From a bacterium (GTDB lineage: Bacteria; Elusimicrobiota; Elusimicrobia; UBA1565; UBA9628): 64,000 nt of DNA. The notes beneath the pieces were generated by a model, which worked only from the letters and a program-made list of their open reading frames with translations, was not told the origin of the DNA and searched no databases. The stretch covers positions 1 through 64,000 of the forward strand of contig JAKAQO010000005.1 of assembly GCA_021822495.1 (NCBI GenBank), in the 5' to 3' direction. Made by a program: the position numbers and the translations under genes. Below, one piece after another: positions 29,240-36,594 of this stretch. How positions within the stretch are numbered: the first letter of the stretch is position 1; the number at the start of each line of letters is the position of its first letter.

Positions 29240-29707
29240 TCACCAGCTGGAAAATCTTAAGGCCGCGGCGCAGAAAACGATGCCCGCTAAAACAAATAGG
29301 TTGATCGTCCCCCATAGTTTCATTTTCGCGGCTAAGGCGCGTAATTGCGCGGGATCTTTTGAATTCATCATCTGGGGCCCCCAAACATAGGTGTGGAGAA
29401 GGCTTAAAACGACCATGAGAGAAACTAAAATCATTTTTACGGCAAAAATTTGGCCCCAAGGTCCCCAAAAAATTTCGGGAGTTTCGCGGATTTCCCAGAG
29501 CTTATAAAGCCCGGTCAAAAGAAGCGTTGTCCAGCACCCCCACATGACGATTTTAAACCTCGCTCCGATTTCCCGGTAAATTTCAAAGCGCGCGGAATCT
29601 TTCAGGAATTTTCGGAGTATCGGCTGAACCGCCAAGGACATGGCGAATGTCCCGCCGACCCACAAAATCGCGGCCATGAGATGAAGCCAATGAATAAAGG
29701 TATCCAT
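29240..29707 (-). CDS. CopD-like four-helix membrane protein
   Basis: 155 residues with four hydrophobic spans. HWLHLMAAILWVGGTFAMSLAVQPIL at the N-terminus carries the His and WVGG pattern of the CopD/DUF2269-type family, whose members are linked with copper or heme handling in membranes. Later spans include CWTTLLLTGLYKLWEI and LVSLMVVLSLLHTYVWGP. It lies 14 bases after the third radical-SAM gene on the same strand, so it probably completes the cytochrome operon. Substrate is not shown by the sequence. Confidence 0.75.
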   Translation of the reverse strand: MDTFIHWLHLMAAILWVGGTFAMSLAVQPILRKFLKDSARFEIYREIGARFKIVMWGCWTTLLLTGLYKLWEIRETPEIFWGPWGQIFAVKMILVSLMVVLSLLHTYVWGPQMMNSKDPAQLRALAAKMKLWGTINLFVLAGIVFCAAALRFSSW

Positions 29708-29721
29708 AATAATTAGAAACT

Positions 29722-30621
29722 CTAATTTCTGACCGGAACAAATTCATCCCAGCCGAAAAGTTCCGGATATTCTTTCCAAGGCCCTTCGCAGACAAAATCA
29801 TAACGGCAGTTGCGGCATTTTTGAGCCTTGGTCTTGCCCTCATCATGACGGTAGGCCGTGTAATCGGCGATAACCGCTTCGGCGTCATAGACGGCGGTAT
29901 GGGGGATGATTTGTTCGGCCACGTATTTTTCATAGCCCTTCATTAAACAATAGGGAATCGCTTCCGTCATGCAGGAAACTCCAGCTTTAATTCCGACATC
30001 AAGGCCTTGAAAAACAGAGGGCATAACCAGGGATTTTTTCGGCACGATTTTGTTTTTATTTTTATCGGCTTCCCCTAAGATATGGACAAACGCAAACTGA
30101 TATTGATTGACGCCAAGGGAAACAAGAAGTTTGGCAAGCTCCGGCAAGTCTTGGTAATTGCGCTCGGTAATGACCGTATTGCTTAAAATCCTCTGACCCA
30201 ATTTTCTCAAGTTCCTAATTCCAGCCACAACCTGAACAAAAGCTCCAGGAACGCGGGTCAGTTCATCGTGAATTTCGGGCTTAGAACCGTGAAGAGCGGG
30301 AGAAAACTCATTGGCGCCGGCATCAATTAATTCCCGACAGAAATCCTCATAGAAAAACCGCCGGCCGTTTGACTGAATCTGGATGGTTTCATATCCGAGT
30401 TTGCGCGCCAAACGAATTGTCTCCAAAAGACTTTTGTGAACCGTCGGCTCTCCGCCGGTCAAAACCAAGCTCGTTGCGCCGTTTAAACGGCCTTCCTCAA
30501 GGCTTTTGATGATTTGTTCGGAGGTTTTAGGTCCAAATTTCTTCCGCTTGTCTCCCTGGACGCAAAAATGACAACGGTTATTGCAGGCAAAACCGAGTTT
30601 GATATCCACTCTCTCAGGCAT
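29722..30621 (-). CDS. Radical SAM protein (third of three)
   Basis: 299 residues. The 4Fe-4S motif is C13-NNR-C17-HF-C20, followed by LVLTGGEPTVHKSLL (the GGE SAM-binding block). The C-terminal part has a CRNCRYDFVCEGPW cysteine cluster that could bind a second cluster. Subfamily not recognised. It starts 3 bases after the preceding radical-SAM gene with no obvious ribosome site, suggesting coupled translation. Substrate unknown; by context it may act on a cytochrome, heme or peptide product of the same operon. Confidence 0.85.
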   Translation of the reverse strand: MPERVDIKLGFACNNRCHFCVQGDKRKKFGPKTSEQIIKSLEEGRLNGATSLVLTGGEPTVHKSLLETIRLARKLGYETIQIQSNGRRFFYEDFCRELIDAGANEFSPALHGSKPEIHDELTRVPGAFVQVVAGIRNLRKLGQRILSNTVITERNYQDLPELAKLLVSLGVNQYQFAFVHILGEADKNKNKIVPKKSLVMPSVFQGLDVGIKAGVSCMTEAIPYCLMKGYEKYVAEQIIPHTAVYDAEAVIADYTAYRHDEGKTKAQKCRNCRYDFVCEGPWKEYPELFGWDEFVPVRN

Positions 30622-30624
30622 GAA

Positions 30625-31584
30625 TTAATGGGGGACTGTACCTAACTTTTGGTTTTTAAGCGCGTTTTCGGCAATCCAGTCCTGGGTTCGGCAGGAACAA
30701 TAATAAACCGACATCTTAAACTGATGAATCAAAGCGTATAAAAGGTGTCCGTAAACGGTCTCTTCGCTTTTAGCGACCGGAGACCAAGTCAGTCTAAAGT
30801 CGGGGGATCCGCTTGAAGAGGCATGGTAACCACGCTTTTTTAAAGAATCAATATTGGCAGCGCTTGCGAAAAGTTCATGAAGAATCAACTGCTTGACTCC
30901 CAATTCATCGAGGTAAGACATAATATCGCGCACGACTTTTTTATCCTCTGGAATTGCCGGCATTTCAATCTCGACGTCGTTAAAGACTTCCCGCGCAAGT
31001 CTCACGGGCTCGGCGTCATATTCTCGAGCGGCCAAGTCAATTCTAAGCCCCGAAACCCCGGCGGCCTTAAGTTCCTTTAGGATGTTAAGGGTTAACCGTT
31101 CGCCGTTGGTGTAGAGATCAATCCAAAGGTCGGAGCCCAGATTTTTCTTTAAAGCCTTAATGATCTCAAAAACGCGCTGGGGGAAAAGAAGAGGTTCGCC
31201 GCCTCCGATTCCGACGCTTTTAACGCCCATTTCTTTAAGGCCCAAAATTGCCTCATCCAGAGAAGAAACCTCCCGGCCATGAACGCTCAGAACATCCTTG
31301 CGGGGCTTGGGATTAAAGCAAAAAAAACAATCGCGGTTGCAAAGGGTCGTAACGCTTAAATGACTGGCCTCTCCAGACAAACAAGGCTTGCATCCATCAG
31401 ATAATTGACGGGTAAACAGAGTTCCCCGTTCCGGCCAGCCTTTAATTCCATGAGCCTTAAGAAGGCGCAACAATTTGGCTTTTCGACGATTGGCCATTTC
31501 CGCATGGGGTTCGGGCGGCAGAGATTCCTTGCGGGCAAGCCCCAGGGCATAACGCTCGAAAGTTTCAGATAATGGCTGGGTCAT
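30625..31584 (-). CDS. Radical SAM protein (second of three)
   Basis: 319 residues from ATG 31584. The cluster motif is C82-NRD-C86-FF-C89; an upstream pair C65-KP-C68 and a late YYCSCRTQDW may be further metal ligands. VGIGGGEPLLFP is the SAM-binding block and LYTNGERL follows. Subfamily not recognised; substrate unknown. The start is set by AAGGAAA about 5 bases upstream and by its 20-base overlap with the preceding gene; a frame continuing up to 31614 has no such site. The last ten codons (NQKLGTVPH) fall in a degenerate palindromic repeat, so the natural C-terminus may have been different. Confidence 0.85.
   Translation of the reverse strand: MTQPLSETFERYALGLARKESLPPEPHAEMANRRKAKLLRLLKAHGIKGWPERGTLFTRQLSDGCKPCLSGEASHLSVTTLCNRDCFFCFNPKPRKDVLSVHGREVSSLDEAILGLKEMGVKSVGIGGGEPLLFPQRVFEIIKALKKNLGSDLWIDLYTNGERLTLNILKELKAAGVSGLRIDLAAREYDAEPVRLAREVFNDVEIEMPAIPEDKKVVRDIMSYLDELGVKQLILHELFASAANIDSLKKRGYHASSSGSPDFRLTWSPVAKSEETVYGHLLYALIHQFKMSVYYCSCRTQDWIAENALKNQKLGTVPH
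30630..30650. repeat. Degenerate copy of a GGGGACTGTCCCC palindrome
   Basis: GGGGGACTGTACCTAACTTTT resembles the perfect palindromes at 44143-44155 and 52701-52713 and the shorter one at 51141-51151. Here it is read as the last codons and stop region of the second radical-SAM gene. Confidence 0.5.
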
Positions 31585-32638
31585 GGTTTCCTTTCGTATG
31601 GAATTGGGAGCCAACCATTCCCTCGCTTAGGCTTTGGTCATAGACGCAAGCCGGCTCTTCGGCTAAGACGTTATTGTAGGCGAAATAAGCCCGGGCGCGG
31701 CACCCTCCGCAAACATTTTTAAAATTACAGACCCCGCAACGGCCTTCAAGAAGATCAGGGTTGCGAAGCTGACCAAAGAGCTTCGATTCGGTCCAGATTG
31801 TTTTAAGCGGAGTCTCCTTGATGTTTCCGGACGAAAGAGGGAGATACCCGCAGGGAAAAACGTCTCCTTTATGGGAAACAAAACACATATGAATCCCGGC
31901 CAGACAACCTTTTCGGTCTTTGGCCGAATCATCTTCGATGCGGTAATAGTGGGGGGCGCAAATGGCTTTAATGGGGAGTTGTCCTGGTTTATCTTTTTGC
32001 GCAACCCAATGAAGCCAATCCTCAACTTCCTTGGAACTCAACATGTCGGAATCCGCAATTTCAACTCCGCAACCGACTGGAACCAAAAGAAAAAGATACA
32101 GCGCAAAAGCCTCTAATTCCTTCGCGAGATGATAAATGGATTCCACCTCGGAAACATTCTTTTTGGTAACCGTAAAGTTGATTTGGACCTTGATTCCCGC
32201 GTTTTTAAGCGCCAGAAACCCTTTTAAAGCTTTGGCGAAATTTCCGGATCCGCGAAACGCGTCATGGGTTTCCGCCAAAGCCCCATCAAGCGAAATCGAG
32301 GCGTAATAAACTCCACAATCCGCCAAGCGTTCCGCGATTTTGTCAGTGACCAACGTTCCATTGGTCGCAAGACCCGAGGGAAGCCCCTTTTCTTTCGCAT
32401 AAGCGATGAGTTCAAAAATGTCTTTTCGAAAGAGCGGTTCTCCGCCGGAAAAGATAAGGACGGGCCGCCCCAGGCCTGCGAGTTGATCAATAAAGGACTT
32501 CGCCTCTTGGGTCGTCAGTTCATCGGGAGAACCCTTCGTGAGAACGTCGGTGCGGCGGCAGTGAATGCAGCGGAGATTGCATCCAGCCGTCGCTTCCCAA
32601 TAAACCCGCCTCAAAGAGGTTTTTAGAGGCGGGTTCAT
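31565..32638 (-). CDS. Radical SAM/SPASM protein of the NirJ/AhbC/AhbD heme family (first of three)
   Basis: 357 residues. C20-NLR-C24-IH-C27 is the SAM cluster, LIFSGGEPLFRKD the GGE block and YYASISLDG a conserved strand. IKAICAPHYYRI, the late CGVCNFKNVCGGCRARAY cysteine set and EEPACVY match what I know of NirJ, AhbC and AhbD, which trim propionates in heme d1 and siroheme-dependent heme synthesis. No other ahb or nir genes are nearby, so the true substrate is uncertain. The start ATG overlaps the stop of a 37-codon ORF. After EEPACVY, where relatives usually end soon, 25 extra residues are read through the remnant. Confidence 0.85.
   Translation of the reverse strand: MNPPLKTSLRRVYWEATAGCNLRCIHCRRTDVLTKGSPDELTTQEAKSFIDQLAGLGRPVLIFSGGEPLFRKDIFELIAYAKEKGLPSGLATNGTLVTDKIAERLADCGVYYASISLDGALAETHDAFRGSGNFAKALKGFLALKNAGIKVQINFTVTKKNVSEVESIYHLAKELEAFALYLFLLVPVGCGVEIADSDMLSSKEVEDWLHWVAQKDKPGQLPIKAICAPHYYRIEDDSAKDRKGCLAGIHMCFVSHKGDVFPCGYLPLSSGNIKETPLKTIWTESKLFGQLRNPDLLEGRCGVCNFKNVCGGCRARAYFAYNNVLAEEPACVYDQSLSEGMVGSQFHTKGNHDPAII
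31582..31638 (-). pseudogene. Remnant resembling the 37-codon ORF at the junction of two radical-SAM genes
   Basis: In a frame not used by either gene the sequence reads KPKRG-NGWLPIPYERKP-stop, with the stop overlapping the next ATG (ATGA). The intact ORF at 32635-32748 ends NGWLQISYGKKP-stop with the same ATGA and begins MTEPKRG. Relative to it, this copy has a one-base shift after ATGACC and lacks the middle. The same bases are now read as the C-terminal 25 residues of the first radical-SAM protein. Confidence 0.55.
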
Positions 32639-32748
32639 GGTTTCTTTCCGTACGAAATCTGGAGCCAACCATTTCTGACCGAATATAAATGAGGGAATGC
32701 CGCTTCCAAATTCTGTTTAAGAGAGCGGCCTCGCTTAGGCTCGGTCAT
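32635..32748 (-). CDS. Small 37-residue ORF, candidate peptide substrate or leader peptide
   Basis: The product begins MTEPKRGRSLKQNLEAAF and ends NGWLQISYGKKP. GGAG lies 7 bases before its ATG and its stop overlaps the next start (ATGA), so it is set up to be translated and coupled to the first radical-SAM gene. It lies 20 bases after the cytochrome gene. Small ORFs next to SPASM radical-SAM genes are often precursors of ribosomally made modified peptides; that role is inference. Against it, its first half coincides with a hairpin plus CTCGCTTAGGCTCGGTC sequence that recurs near 52460, so it may be a dispersed repeat that happens to be open. Confidence 0.5.
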   Translation of the reverse strand: MTEPKRGRSLKQNLEAAFPHLYSVRNGWLQISYGKKP

Positions 32749-32768
32749 GGAAAATCTCCAAGTATCAA

Positions 32769-33374
32769 TTAAGAATGCTGGGCTGAGGCGGAAGCCGGAG
32801 TTGAAGAAGCGCCTTTAGAAGCGGTTTTCTTCGCGGAAGACGAAGCGCCAAAAATACGCGCATAGTCTTTCGGATAATTTTGCTTAAAGCTCTTTAAAAG
32901 CTTCTCGCGATTGGCTTCCCAAGCCTCGGTATTTTTCCCGGTTTTGCGAACCTTTGAATCGTAGACCAAGAATTCAAAAATTCTTTTGCCTTCGGAAGGC
33001 CGAATATTGGCCCCGGGTTTGGACATCATTTTGTGAACGTATCGGCTCCAGATTTTTTGGCCGATCTGCCAGACCTTGGGATTTTTGAAGATTTCCGGGT
33101 CAGTTTTTTTCTCCGCCGCCTGTTCCGCGGCCGTCAACTCCAAGAATTGGGAGTTAATCGGGCGGGCAATGGTGTGGCAGGCCGAACACTTATTGAGAAA
33201 TAAGTGATAATACATCTTCATTTTGGGCGGATACTGGGAGACGTCAATGGAGGTTGGCCCAAAGTCATTGGGAAACACCCCTCCAGACTTGTCCGCCGAA
33301 TACCCCATTGAGAAAAGAGCGGCGTTTATGGCGACGGCTCCGAAGACGACTGCGATTATTTTTTTTAGCTTCAT
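32769..33374 (-). CDS. Periplasmic monoheme cytochrome c
   Basis: 201 residues. Signal peptide (MKLKKIIAVVFGAVAINAALF, cleavage near GYSA). One heme site C63-SA-C66-H67; a possible axial Met lies in HKMMSKPGANI. The C-terminal 30 residues are Ala/Ser/Lys-rich low complexity. AGAGGAAA precedes the ATG. It follows the cytochrome-porin gene by 30 bases on the same strand, as expected for a periplasmic electron carrier paired with an outer-membrane cytochrome. Redox partner and potential are unknown. Confidence 0.88.
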   Translation of the reverse strand: MKLKKIIAVVFGAVAINAALFSMGYSADKSGGVFPNDFGPTSIDVSQYPPKMKMYYHLFLNKCSACHTIARPINSQFLELTAAEQAAEKKTDPEIFKNPKVWQIGQKIWSRYVHKMMSKPGANIRPSEGKRIFEFLVYDSKVRKTGKNTEAWEANREKLLKSFKQNYPKDYARIFGASSSAKKTASKGASSTPASASAQHS

Positions 33375-33404
33375 GTTAGTTTCCTCTCTTGTTTATTTGT
33401 TCCA

Positions 33405-34844
33405 TCAAAATCCGACTTCAAACTGAAGGCTCAAGCGATTCCCCATTGGAAGTAGCGCCGCGACATTTGAATTAATTCCACCATAGTTGGCCGTTCCACC
33501 TCCGCCAAAACGATTGGTGTCAACCGTATATTCAAGGAATCCCTTGAAATTCGGCGCGAAATAGTGAGCAATCTGAGCCGTCACGTAATTAAAACGCTCT
33601 GTTCCATTCCACAAAGTCATCCAGTTTTCTCTTAAGAGGGGAACTAAGAACGCATAATCATGATAATCCCGCTTATAGGTGTAGAAGATTTCGGCATAAG
33701 CGGCCTGGTCTGTTTCCGCGGCGCCTAAAGTCATGTCAGAGTCATGAGCATAGGCATAAACCGCTCGGGCGTAGAAGTCATCATGCTCCCACAAAGCGTC
33801 AAACCCTCCGCGAACGTTTTGGACATAATGATTGGCAATAGGGGTTGTTCCACCACCCGGCAAATCTCCCGTAGATCCAGGCGCTCCTGCATCAGTAACT
33901 CCGCCGGATTGACCCCATTGACCGAAAGTTCCAACCATCAAACCATCTCCCGTATCATAAGCAAAACGCGCATAGCCGTTTCCCGCGCCGCCTTGACCGG
34001 TATTGTTGGATGAGGGATCCTTGGAATATCCAAGAGCATAATAGACAAAAGAGGCGCTCTCACTGGAAATGTGAACTTGTCCATAAATCTCACCGGTCTG
34101 GGTTTGGGTGTTGAGTGGAAAACCGGAAAGATAGGCTTGCCCTTCCATCAAAAAATCCGTCGAACGATTCGCGATGGTGGGGCTTTCAGCCGAGGTAATG
34201 GTCTGATACGGATCATCGACAAAGAAGCCGCGGCGCATCATCACGACGTTGTAGAGAAGAGAGGGATGGTAGCCAAATCTCAAATCCCCCATGCTCGGAT
34301 TAAAACCCGCTGCCTGATTGGCGTCCATTTCTCCAAAATAAGAAACGTGCTTGGCCGCATCGCCGCCAGCGATGAACATATCAATGTCATTGATGGGTTG
34401 AAATTCCGGACCGTTGAGAGGCCCCGTGCCGCCCATTTGAGAACCGGTCGTCGCGGTTCCATGTCCGGTGTCCAAGGGTCTCGAACGAACAATGACGGCC
34501 CAGGGCATGGTGGCTTCCGTCCAGAGTTCCTGGTTTTGGCTTTGAAGAACGCCATCGGTTGAACCGCGGGTTCTCACGTAACCGTTCATTTTAAACTGCC
34601 GCCCATAAGCGTTCAATGTTGGGTAATCGGCATGACATTGGGAGCAACTCATGTGGTATTTGCGCGCAAAAGCCGGAAGACCCAAGGCCTGACTAATCCC
34701 GTCAGGTCTTACTGGGCACAAATGCCTCAGACTATGAAAGTAGGGTGGCAAAAGCCATACAAGACTCAACACTAAAGCGGAAAGTAAAAGCCGCTTAAAC
34801 GCCCTCTTCACCGTTTTCGTTTTTCCATCACTCCCATCCGTCAT
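33405..34844 (-). CDS. Cyc2-like outer-membrane cytochrome-porin fusion
   Basis: 479 residues. An N-terminal hydrophobic segment (RLLLSALVLSLVWLLPP) for export, then FARKYHMSCSQCH with heme site C67-SQ-C70-H71, directly followed by ADYPTLNAYGRQFKMNGY. A heme motif, then a P-x-LN-x-GR-x-FK-x-GY phrase, then a beta-barrel is the layout known for Cyc2 iron oxidases and their relatives. The remainder alternates aromatic and polar residues and ends LSLQFEVGF, an outer-membrane barrel C-terminus. It could instead belong to a related cytochrome-porin family with another substrate. The start at 34844 has GGAG 9 bases upstream; ATG 34853 overlaps the previous stop and is the alternative. Confidence 0.75.
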   Translation of the reverse strand: MTDGSDGKTKTVKRAFKRLLLSALVLSLVWLLPPYFHSLRHLCPVRPDGISQALGLPAFARKYHMSCSQCHADYPTLNAYGRQFKMNGYVRTRGSTDGVLQSQNQELWTEATMPWAVIVRSRPLDTGHGTATTGSQMGGTGPLNGPEFQPINDIDMFIAGGDAAKHVSYFGEMDANQAAGFNPSMGDLRFGYHPSLLYNVVMMRRGFFVDDPYQTITSAESPTIANRSTDFLMEGQAYLSGFPLNTQTQTGEIYGQVHISSESASFVYYALGYSKDPSSNNTGQGGAGNGYARFAYDTGDGLMVGTFGQWGQSGGVTDAGAPGSTGDLPGGGTTPIANHYVQNVRGGFDALWEHDDFYARAVYAYAHDSDMTLGAAETDQAAYAEIFYTYKRDYHDYAFLVPLLRENWMTLWNGTERFNYVTAQIAHYFAPNFKGFLEYTVDTNRFGGGGTANYGGINSNVAALLPMGNRLSLQFEVGF

Positions 34845-34849
34845 TGATT

Positions 34850-35401
34850 TCATCTCCTTTTGTTTTTAGCGGCCCTGGATCTTCCCAAGTTTCTCCCCGC
34901 TTTAAATTCTAGCGTTTTATCCAGCACCTTGATAAGGTCAAAGGCGGTAATCACGCCAACGACTCCGTTATTTTCTGTCACAAAAACGCGGTGAATGCGT
35001 TTTTTGAGCATTTCTTTGACGACCTCGCGAAGAGGGGTTTCCTTTTTTACGGAAAAAAGTTTAGGGGTCATCCATTCCGTCACCCTGTCTTCTTCGCTTT
35101 CCGCATGAAAGCCAATGCCTTGAGCGATAGTCTCAAGAGCCCCAAGGGTTCTCAAGGCTCCGCGGTCTTCCCCGCCAGAGGAACAGGCGACATGATCGCG
35201 CTCATAATGAGTGATGTCGGTTTTAGTCAAAACCCCAACGGGAGAAGCGCCTCCGTTTAAAACCGGAGCCCCGCTGATGTTTTTATCCAAGAAGACGGAA
35301 GCGGCACGCTGCATGGTGTCTTTTGAAGAAATGGTCACAACAGGGGAAACCATCACGTCCTCGGCATGGAGTTCAAAATTGGCTTTTTGGGTTTTTCTCA
35401 T
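34850..35401 (-). CDS. CBS-domain pair protein
   Basis: 183 residues with two CBS motifs: DVMVSPVVTISSKDTMQRAASVFLDKNISGAPVL at the N-terminal side (read in pieces) and WMTPKLFSVKKETPLREVVKEMLKKRIHRVFV at the other, each ending in a G-V-[IL]-T strand. CBS pairs bind adenine nucleotides or SAM and act as sensors. No enzyme domain is attached. It overlaps both neighbours by ATGA, so it is locked into the cytochrome operon, perhaps as an energy-state sensor (inference). Confidence 0.9.
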   Translation of the reverse strand: MRKTQKANFELHAEDVMVSPVVTISSKDTMQRAASVFLDKNISGAPVLNGGASPVGVLTKTDITHYERDHVACSSGGEDRGALRTLGALETIAQGIGFHAESEEDRVTEWMTPKLFSVKKETPLREVVKEMLKKRIHRVFVTENNGVVGVITAFDLIKVLDKTLEFKAGRNLGRSRAAKNKRR

Positions 35402-35847
35402 TTAAACGCTCCGGCAACACTCTTTCTTGCAACAAAACGACTTGCCTTTTCAACCGGGAATAAACTCTGGAGAGAAAAATCTCTTTTTTTCCTTAGCGAA
35501 GATAAGACCTTGGCTAATACAAAAGAAGGACAATGATGAGGCGGCGAAGCTTCTAAATCGCAATCACAAAGCAGAACCAGCTTTCGGCGCAAGGAAAGAA
35601 GCGCCAGGGGCTTCATCAAATTAAGAGCGTAATTTGAGCGGAGTTCTTTTTCATAAGCCGCTTGAAATTCCTTTTGGGTCAATAGTCCAAGGCCCAGACG
35701 CTTTCGCAAAACGTAGCTGGGAGCAAGACCCGGAATCCAGGCATCCATGGCGCTTAAGATTTTTCCACCGGGGCGTTTCCACGAAGGAAGAATTTTGTAG
35801 CCGTTTCCGCGTTGCCCTAGCTTTTCCACGACGATTCCGCTTTCCAT
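35398..35847 (-). CDS. DUF488-like protein
   Basis: 149 residues. YEKELRSNYALNLMKPLALLSLRRKLVLLCDCDLEASPPHHCPSFVLAKVL resembles (in pieces) the DUF488 family, where a strand like VLLC-x-C-x-E precedes an HC motif. Function of the family is not established. It is the first gene of the cytochrome operon; a -10 box ends 6 bases before its ATG, so the message is probably leaderless. It overlaps the CBS gene by ATGA. Confidence 0.6.
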   Translation of the reverse strand: MESGIVVEKLGQRGNGYKILPSWKRPGGKILSAMDAWIPGLAPSYVLRKRLGLGLLTQKEFQAAYEKELRSNYALNLMKPLALLSLRRKLVLLCDCDLEASPPHHCPSFVLAKVLSSLRKKRDFSLQSLFPVEKASRFVARKSVAGAFK

Positions 35848-35853
35848 AAAACT

Positions 35854-35896
35854 AGTATAGCGCGCAAAGAAGGTTCTGTTCCATGACCTGGGTCAT
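35854..35896 (-). promoter_or_regulatory. Cytochrome-operon promoter with palindromic activator site
   Basis: TATACT (35859-35854) ends 6 bases before the ATG at 35847; no good -35 box is seen. ATGACC-TG-GGTCAT (35883-35896) is a perfect palindrome whose centre lies about 42 bases upstream of the predicted start of transcription, the position used by class II Crp/Fnr activators. A Crp/Fnr-family gene lies immediately upstream. Confidence 0.6.
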
Positions 35897-35925
35897 ATTT
35901 TTCAAAGAAATTTTTGAGAGAAGTT

Positions 35926-36594
35926 TTAACGACTCAGATCGACGAGGAATTCCGGCTTTTGAATAACGATTTTGCCGCGGGAGGAGGACAGAATTTCTTT
36001 GTCTTCAAGTTGTTTTAAAATTCGGAAAGTGGTTTCCAAGGTCGCCCCGACAAGCTCGGAGAGTTCTTTTTTCGTAAAAGGAACCGTTGGGCCATGAACC
36101 TGAAAAAGCCGCGTCAAAATAGAGGCGATTCTCTTAGGGACGGCCTCTTGCCCCAAGCATCTGAGTCCCTGAACATCCTTGAGGCGTTCCGAACAAAGAG
36201 AGCAAAGCCCGCGCACAAACCCGCCATTTCTTGAGTAGCAATCCAGGAAAATTCTCTCAGGGATCAAAATAACGTGGCTTTCCTCGGCGCAAACAGCTGT
36301 GCAGGGATAAACTCTGTTGTTTGAGCCCAGGCGGCACAAGGTGCCGAAAATCTCCCCGGGGGCCAAACTCTCCAGCGCGAAAGATTTCCCGTCCGAAGTA
36401 AATTTAAAGACTTGGAGTCTTCCTTTATATAAAACCCAGACGCCTTCCGCGGGCTCGCCTTCATTGTAAATAGTATCGCCTTTTTTAAATGTCTTAATTT
36501 TGGAAACTGAAACAAGGGAGGAAAGTTCCTGCGGAATCAGGGTCTTAAACGGGTCTATTGAGGAAAGAAATTTCGCGATTTCGTTTGCGGCCAT
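35926..36594 (-). CDS. Crp/Fnr-family transcriptional regulator
   Basis: 222 residues. The N-terminal cyclic-nucleotide-binding fold shows KKGDTIYNEGEPAEGVWVLYKGRLQVF and LAPGEIFGTLC. The C-terminal winged helix contains TKKELSELVGATLETTFRILKQLEDKEIL. The N-terminal cysteine cluster of Fnr is absent, but several Cys lie in the sensor half (TLCRL, YPCTAVC, LCSLC), so a redox or cluster-based signal is possible; this is inference. It is likely to control the operon just downstream on the same strand, 78 bases away. Confidence 0.88.
   Translation of the reverse strand: MAANEIAKFLSSIDPFKTLIPQELSSLVSVSKIKTFKKGDTIYNEGEPAEGVWVLYKGRLQVFKFTSDGKSFALESLAPGEIFGTLCRLGSNNRVYPCTAVCAEESHVILIPERIFLDCYSRNGGFVRGLCSLCSERLKDVQGLRCLGQEAVPKRIASILTRLFQVHGPTVPFTKKELSELVGATLETTFRILKQLEDKEILSSSRGKIVIQKPEFLVDLSR

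Follow-up and report, generated by a model that had tools for sequence, protein, structure and literature searches.

Which process could require that an outer-membrane cytochrome-porin fusion, a periplasmic cytochrome, three radical S-adenosylmethionine (SAM) enzymes and a Crp/Fnr-type regulator are encoded side by side? This question is raised by a locus of nine genes in a 64-kb window (the whole stretch analysed: positions 1 to 64,000 of contig JAKAQO010000005.1, assembly GCA_021822495.1), which is assigned to the Elusimicrobiota and has named Elusimicrobia metagenome-assembled genomes (MAGs) among its close relatives. The answer favored here, with a probability of roughly 0.55, is a switch-controlled Cyc2-type electron-uptake operon, in which one radical SAM enzyme (RS1) would supply heme b and two others (RS2 and RS3) would carry out a modification.

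All nine genes are located on the minus strand, in the order Crp/Fnr regulator, DUF488 protein, CBS protein, cytochrome-porin (PORIN), monoheme cytochrome (CYT), RS1, RS2, RS3 and CopD-like protein. Overlaps (DUF488/CBS, 4 bp; CBS/porin, 4 bp; RS1/RS2, 20 bp) and short gaps (RS2/RS3, 3 bp; RS3/CopD, 14 bp) give the locus an operon-like spacing. Since the order is kept in three other species of the same genus, g1 (G001, G003 and G004; 74-95% protein identity), it is not a product of chance. Pfam and NCBIfam back the family calls (cNMP_binding and HTH_Crp_2; DUF488; two CBS domains; Radical_SAM and SPASM in RS1; two further Radical_SAM proteins; CopD). Coordinates, families and spacing agree with the initial annotation of this DNA, which described overlapping or close-set genes on one strand. 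It had also called the system undescribed. This holds for the combination, of which the open literature (a body that omits most subscription journals) yielded no description, but not for the Cyc2 conduit as such, reported from an Elusimicrobiota MAG of acid mine drainage in 2021 (PMC8357290). New here are, above all, the operator and a regulon shared with a second genus, and further the placing of RS1 as an AhbD-type enzyme outside the siroheme route and the kinship of RS2 and RS3 with His-Xaa-Ser clusters.

An outer-membrane conduit and its cytochrome partner

PORIN has no match in Pfam or NCBIfam, nor any solved relative in the PDB by sequence. The published Cyc2 screen (Keffer et al., 2021; PMC8406198) uses PXFAR[Q/K][T/Y], CXXCH, PXL and a length of at least 365 residues, and models Cyc2 as a 16-strand porin on OprO/OprP. 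The heme region of PORIN reads ALGLPAFARKY-HMS-CSQCH-ADY-PTL-NAYGRQFKMNGY: PAFARKY stands three residues ahead of CSQCH, the PXL motif lies four residues past it, and the protein of 482 residues contains a single CXXCH. The full consensus AXPXFAR is altered at its leading A, which is G in PORIN and A in L004, L005 and L023. With small changes, the pattern is common to 17 related Elusimicrobiota proteins, all of which, PORIN included, end in Phe. An AlphaFold2 model of PORIN shows 16 strands, starting from residue 119, and an N-terminal helix (residues 10-42), which may include a signal peptide. The matches of this model in Foldseek are 16-strand porins, OprO among them, and VIA-align ranks OprO (Z 25.3) and OprP (Z 25.2) at the top. 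The assignment as a Cyc2-type conduit, proposed in the initial annotation with structure prediction as its check, is therefore well supported by motifs and predicted barrel alike.

PORIN resembles Cyc2 of Mariprofundus and Acidithiobacillus in its N-terminal PXFAR[QK][TY]-CXXCH-PXL arrangement, a length above 365 residues, the OprO/OprP-like 16-strand barrel, and a periplasmic cytochrome partner. It differs in that this partner is monoheme instead of the diheme Cyc1, and in that PORIN, known from sequence and model, shares an operon with AhbD-type and HxsC4-type radical SAM genes and a Crp/Fnr regulator. A homologue on a Burkholderiaceae plasmid carries the same motif and adjoins a c-type cytochrome, which is not recognisably related to CYT.

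The expected periplasmic partner is recovered well beyond the window: in eight genera, PORIN has CYT or a monoheme relative of it as its neighbour (g1, G005, G007, G008, G014/G020, G018, G047 and G052). Near PORIN in G018 and G047, and by a second PORIN copy in G003, lies an operon resembling alternative complex III, which encodes a pentaheme c7-type cytochrome, a molybdopterin oxidoreductase, and Fe-S and NrfD proteins. These neighbourhoods fit a chain from the porin via the periplasmic cytochrome to a membrane complex. This second copy in G003 lies in L087 (G003:C26). CYT has a Ser/Ala-rich C-terminal tail ending in HS, which was considered as a His-Xaa-Ser-like substrate and rejected, as it is found in genus g1 only and is missing in G008, a genome that likewise carries RS2-RS3.

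A conserved operator and its regulon

The regulator contains five Cys that are invariant across three lineages, which suggests from sequence that it is a redox or Fe-S sensor. With up to one mismatch allowed, the window has a single match to the palindrome ATGACCTGGGTCAT, at 35883-35896, and this site is retained in G001, G003 and G004 although the flanks differ. Another genus, G018, has the genes scattered over 38.5 kb. There, TATGAC-N4-GTCATA precedes PORIN, CYT, DUF488, RS1 (one mismatch) and an RS2 operon as separate units, and is also found upstream of a B12-type radical SAM gene. The RS2 operon is composed of a small radical SAM gene, RS2, a radical SAM-isochorismatase fusion and a tyrosine phenol-lyase homologue. 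In G022, the operator stands upstream of RS1 and, altered at two positions, of an RS2 operon of the same make-up. X33 has an ortholog of the regulator, and its DUF488 gene is preceded by a related site.

The scanned regions (825 kb) contain 13 operator matches, where 1.8 are expected; the four g1 copies represent one lineage. Contig C51 of G018 alone has six copies in 38.5 kb, compared with 0 in 40 first-order Markov shuffles, and 11 control regions (about 190 kb) have none. The same operator was looked for in G008, G021 and G026 and not found. A -10-like hexamer follows 21-22 nt downstream in all 13 copies examined, so placed that the operator centre lies 41-42 bp before +1, and in nine of these the start codon is at +1. 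Operator and -10 box are spaced as in class II activation.

As the same operator stands before these genes as scattered units in another genus, it is well supported at the sequence level that the porin, cytochrome, DUF488, AhbD-type and RS2 genes form one regulon. CBS, RS3 and CopD are tied to it solely through operon membership in g1. Control by a Crp/Fnr-type regulator, as first proposed, gains support from the conserved operator, and we infer that the adjacent regulator binds it; TGAC-N4-GTCA resembles the sites of HcpR (wyTTGACnnnnGTCAArw; PMC1274295). Porin, cytochrome and radical SAM genes occur together in other genera too. Separate transcription of the radical SAM genes had been named as a sign against a common system; where promoters are separate, they carry the same operator.

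Some further observations concern this regulon and its surroundings. The RlmN-like radical SAM-isochorismatase fusion, part of the operator regulon in G018, recurs in L097, L071, L072, L080 and L099, often with the tyrosine phenol-lyase homologue and the B12-type radical SAM gene. Palindromes of a TTGACC-N2-GGTCA type are present near a Burkholderiaceae Cyc2-family gene (L133:3572-3583) and before a Thermus TIGR04053 gene adjoining nitrite reductase (L139:2417-2428).

The radical SAM enzymes

RS1 had been placed among the radical SAM proteins of AhbD/NirJ type, and its ranking by hidden Markov models (HMMs) agrees with this. AhbD is the best family (397 bits), followed by TIGR04053 and NirJ2 (314 each), AhbC (210), NirJ1 (209) and NirJ (194). 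RS1 has the CX3CX2C and C-terminal CX2CX5C...C motifs of AhbD (PMC10452713) and eight SPASM Cys spaced 17-17-37-2-5-2-17; this spacing agrees with that of AhbD save for the first spacer, where 17 compares with a published 20-33, the range in which most orthologs fall. In a tree built without an experimentally characterised AhbD sequence, with some long branches and unsure deep joins, it belongs to an Elusimicrobiota clade apart from NirJ, NirJ1, NirJ2 and TIGR04053.

A role as AhbD of the siroheme route was rejected, since the genome encodes HemE, and AhbC was not detected above cut-off (95% completeness). It also has a HemY-like neighbour, recognised by eye, and a weak HemQ-family match; HemN was not found above cut-off. 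In eight related genomes (G014, G019, G020, G023, G025, G027, G029 and G031), an AhbD-type gene abuts hemE where HemQ and HemN are undetected, which suggests that the AhbD-type enzyme ends the coproporphyrin route there. In L104, L105 and L106 (G025, G020 and G027), as in the other five genomes, the order is AhbD-type radical SAM gene, hemE, ferrochelatase. This genome (G000) and 20 others of the search set have no ferrochelatase (PF00762) match, and HemE is present in nearly all of them.

The most probable function of RS1 is to make heme b without oxygen, by decarboxylation of coproheme, in connection with cytochrome production. With AhbD of Methanosarcina and Desulfovibrio RS1 shares the best HMM family, CX3CX2C and the eight SPASM Cys; it differs in scoring under the equivalog cut-off, in its location with c-type cytochromes, and in a genomic background with HemE and no detected AhbC. 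A precedent is described in Haloferax, where anaerobic growth relies on AhbD and aerobic growth on a HemQ-type enzyme, and where ahbD adjoins denitrification genes with which it shares a palindrome (PMC5746218). The ahbD/pitA case of Haloferax volcanii thus parallels the window in having an AhbD-type enzyme by respiratory genes, a shared palindrome and a HemQ-type enzyme elsewhere, whereas the neighbours there are denitrification genes without Cyc2, and a haloarchaeal relative with comparable surroundings (L135) groups with TIGR04053. Since TIGR04053, a different AhbD-like subfamily, is encoded near PORIN in G008, G021 and G026, the association of AhbD-like radical SAM enzymes with the porin probably arose more than once.

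RS2 belongs to an unnamed family with orthologs in 35 of 57 related genomes. It shows two Cys before the radical SAM motif, an invariant HELF and Y-x-C-S; its model (predicted local distance difference test, pLDDT, 88) is matched weakly by viperin and other radical SAM folds. No single partner is co-conserved with it across all genomes compared, and no relatives were found on plasmids. RS3 has HxsC4 as its best family, yet scores 170 of the 500 bits of the NF038332 cut-off. Its orthologs (48-65% identical) often reside in clusters with HxsA4, HxsB, HxsD, many radical SAM genes and sometimes nitrogenase-like genes. By sequence, RS2 and RS3 are thus related to His-Xaa-Ser peptide-maturation clusters, in or near which RS3 orthologs, and often RS2, are found in relatives. 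The operon itself differs in that an HxS-repeat peptide, HxsB and HxsD are all absent from it; in this genome, HxsA, HxsB and HxsD sit at G000:C4, about 475 kb. The large cluster there (G000:C4:450000-489800; L126, L127) comprises HxsA4 (98 bits), HxsB (502), HxsD (65), NifH-like and NifD/K-like proteins and many radical SAM genes.

It is conceivable, if rather doubtful, that RS2 and RS3 are plain maturases of the His-Xaa-Ser peptide HxsA4 brought into the porin operon by rearrangement. RS3 and HxsB occur together in 28 genomes against five discordant ones (RS3 alone in four, HxsB alone in one) and are both missing in 24 (Fisher 6e-11, phylogeny uncorrected), HxsD-HxsB-RS3-RS2 is contiguous in G034, and HxsA4, HxsB and HxsD are encoded elsewhere in this genome. 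Against such a role, three of the four RS3-only genomes (G003, G004 and G008; 94-97% complete) are those with RS2-RS3 beside PORIN-CYT, and HxsA4 and HxsB were not detected in them; RS2 also belongs to the porin regulon of G018 and G022, two genomes in which neither RS3 nor HxsB turned up. As these three genomes keep the pair by the porin, RS2-RS3 probably act in this setting on a substrate other than HxsA4.

Table 1. Features of the locus, with positions in the window
Feature	Position	Strand	Basis
Crp/Fnr-family regulator, 222 aa	35926..36594	-	Pfam cNMP_binding 4e-19, HTH_Crp_2 5e-12
Operator TATGACCCAGGTCATG, CRP/FNR-type palindrome TATGAC-N4-GTCATA	35882..35897	-	Single site in 64 kb, conserved
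Predicted -10 box TATACT	35854..35859	-	Operator centre 42 bp before +1; DUF488 start codon at +1 (leaderless)
DUF488-N3 family protein, 149 aa	35398..35847	-	Pfam PF22751 1e-8
Tandem CBS-domain protein, 183 aa	34850..35401	-	Pfam CBS 3e-27
PORIN, Cyc2-type outer-membrane cytochrome-porin fusion, 482 aa, one CXXCH	33405..34853	-	Cyc2 motifs and 16-strand model
CYT, periplasmic monoheme cytochrome c, 201 aa	32769..33374	-	CXXCH; weak Pfam Cytochrom_C; SorB 25 bits
37-aa open reading frame overlapping the RS1 start	32635..32748	-	Confined to the window; no conservation as a gene
RS1, radical SAM/SPASM protein of AhbD type, 357 aa	31565..32638	-	TIGR04545 397 bits; SPASM Cys; tree
RS2, radical SAM protein of unnamed family, 319 aa	30625..31584	-	Pfam Radical_SAM 3e-16
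RS3, HxsC4-like radical SAM protein, 299 aa	29722..30621	-	NF038332 170 bits
CopD-like membrane protein, 155 aa	29240..29707	-	Pfam CopD 4e-12

The starts of RS1 and RS2 are most likely the ATG codons at 32638 (rather than TTG 32668) and 31584. The 37-aa open reading frame was rejected as a precursor of a ribosomally synthesised and post-translationally modified peptide: it is absent from G001, G003 and G004, and a conserved precursor beside the maturase is thus missing. Before RS1, the window species alone has an insertion of about 80 nt that partly resembles the end of RS1; the short similarity between 31585-31660 and 32636-32750 looks like a local duplication. In the congener G002, the porin lies close to the end of a contig, and strong matches to RS1, RS2 and RS3 were not found. 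A CopD-like relative also adjoins CBS and porin genes in L097. Fifty bp downstream of the CopD-like gene, a response-regulator/kinase gene is located, followed by alanine dehydrogenase; a terminator scan gave matches no more frequent than chance.

Proposed electron uptake and its alternatives

The proposed sequence of events starts with the Crp/Fnr-type regulator, which has conserved cysteines and would activate the gene set from the conserved operator in class II manner. The cytochrome-porin would take up electrons at the outer membrane, probably from Fe(II), and pass them to the periplasmic monoheme cytochrome, which would feed the respiratory chain. RS1 would convert coproheme to heme b by oxygen-independent decarboxylation and so provide for the cytochromes under conditions that do not suit the peroxide-dependent HemQ-type route. 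RS2 and RS3, which also occur in His-Xaa-Ser maturation clusters, may modify some component of the system.

Several points weigh against parts of this proposal. The mean pLDDT of the PORIN model is just 65, a moderate confidence. RS1 reaches 397 of the 500 bits set as TIGR04545 equivalog cut-off, although no other family scores better, and its clade is separate from the AhbD-type copies of heme operons. The missing ferrochelatase match leaves the source of coproheme obscure, and the HemQ-like gene kept in the genome may render RS1 dispensable for heme b. RS2 is also present in many genomes without a detected porin.

RS1 and its partner radical SAM enzymes might instead make an unusual heme for the Cyc2-type cytochrome. 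This appears unlikely: the closeness of RS1 to NirJ2, the unusual heme of the Cyc2-family protein Cyt572 of Leptospirillum (PMC8406198) and the B12-type radical SAM protein and isochorismatase fusion in the G018 regulon would agree with it, but the best HMM is that of AhbD, a maker of heme b, CXXCH in both porin and cytochrome implies ordinary c-type attachment, and the extra radical SAM enzymes are not part of the window operon. In a broader and similarly improbable variant, a new redox component is the product of the regulon. RS1 and the co-regulated radical SAM enzymes (RS2; in other genera the B12-type protein and the isochorismatase fusion with the tyrosine phenol-lyase homologue) would then produce either an altered heme or a small carrier of electrons, or RS2 and RS3 would place a radical-based modification on cytochrome or porin, tuning the extracellular conduit. 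An outward conduit, disposing of electrons to minerals or partners, or one for nitric oxide/nitrite chemistry, is suggested by the HcpR-like operator and by RS1 relatives beside nitrate-reductase-like genes in L101/L036 (recognised by eye), and is improbable given that characterised Cyc2 proteins oxidise Fe(II) (PMC8406198) and that a search of the operon for a nitrogen-oxide reductase gave none.

The working idea of the initial annotation, which combined extracellular electron uptake with a modified heme or peptide, is partly supported. Electron uptake is likely. A modification is possible; RS1, however, has rather the features of a heme b synthase, and the sole short-peptide candidate is not conserved. 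In a mostly uncultured phylum, a Cyc2-type conduit is thereby linked to a specific operator, a likely regulator and radical SAM enzymes, which provides a concrete co-regulated gene set now testable for iron oxidation, and raises the question of whether the heme in conduits of this kind is provided or changed by radical SAM enzymes.

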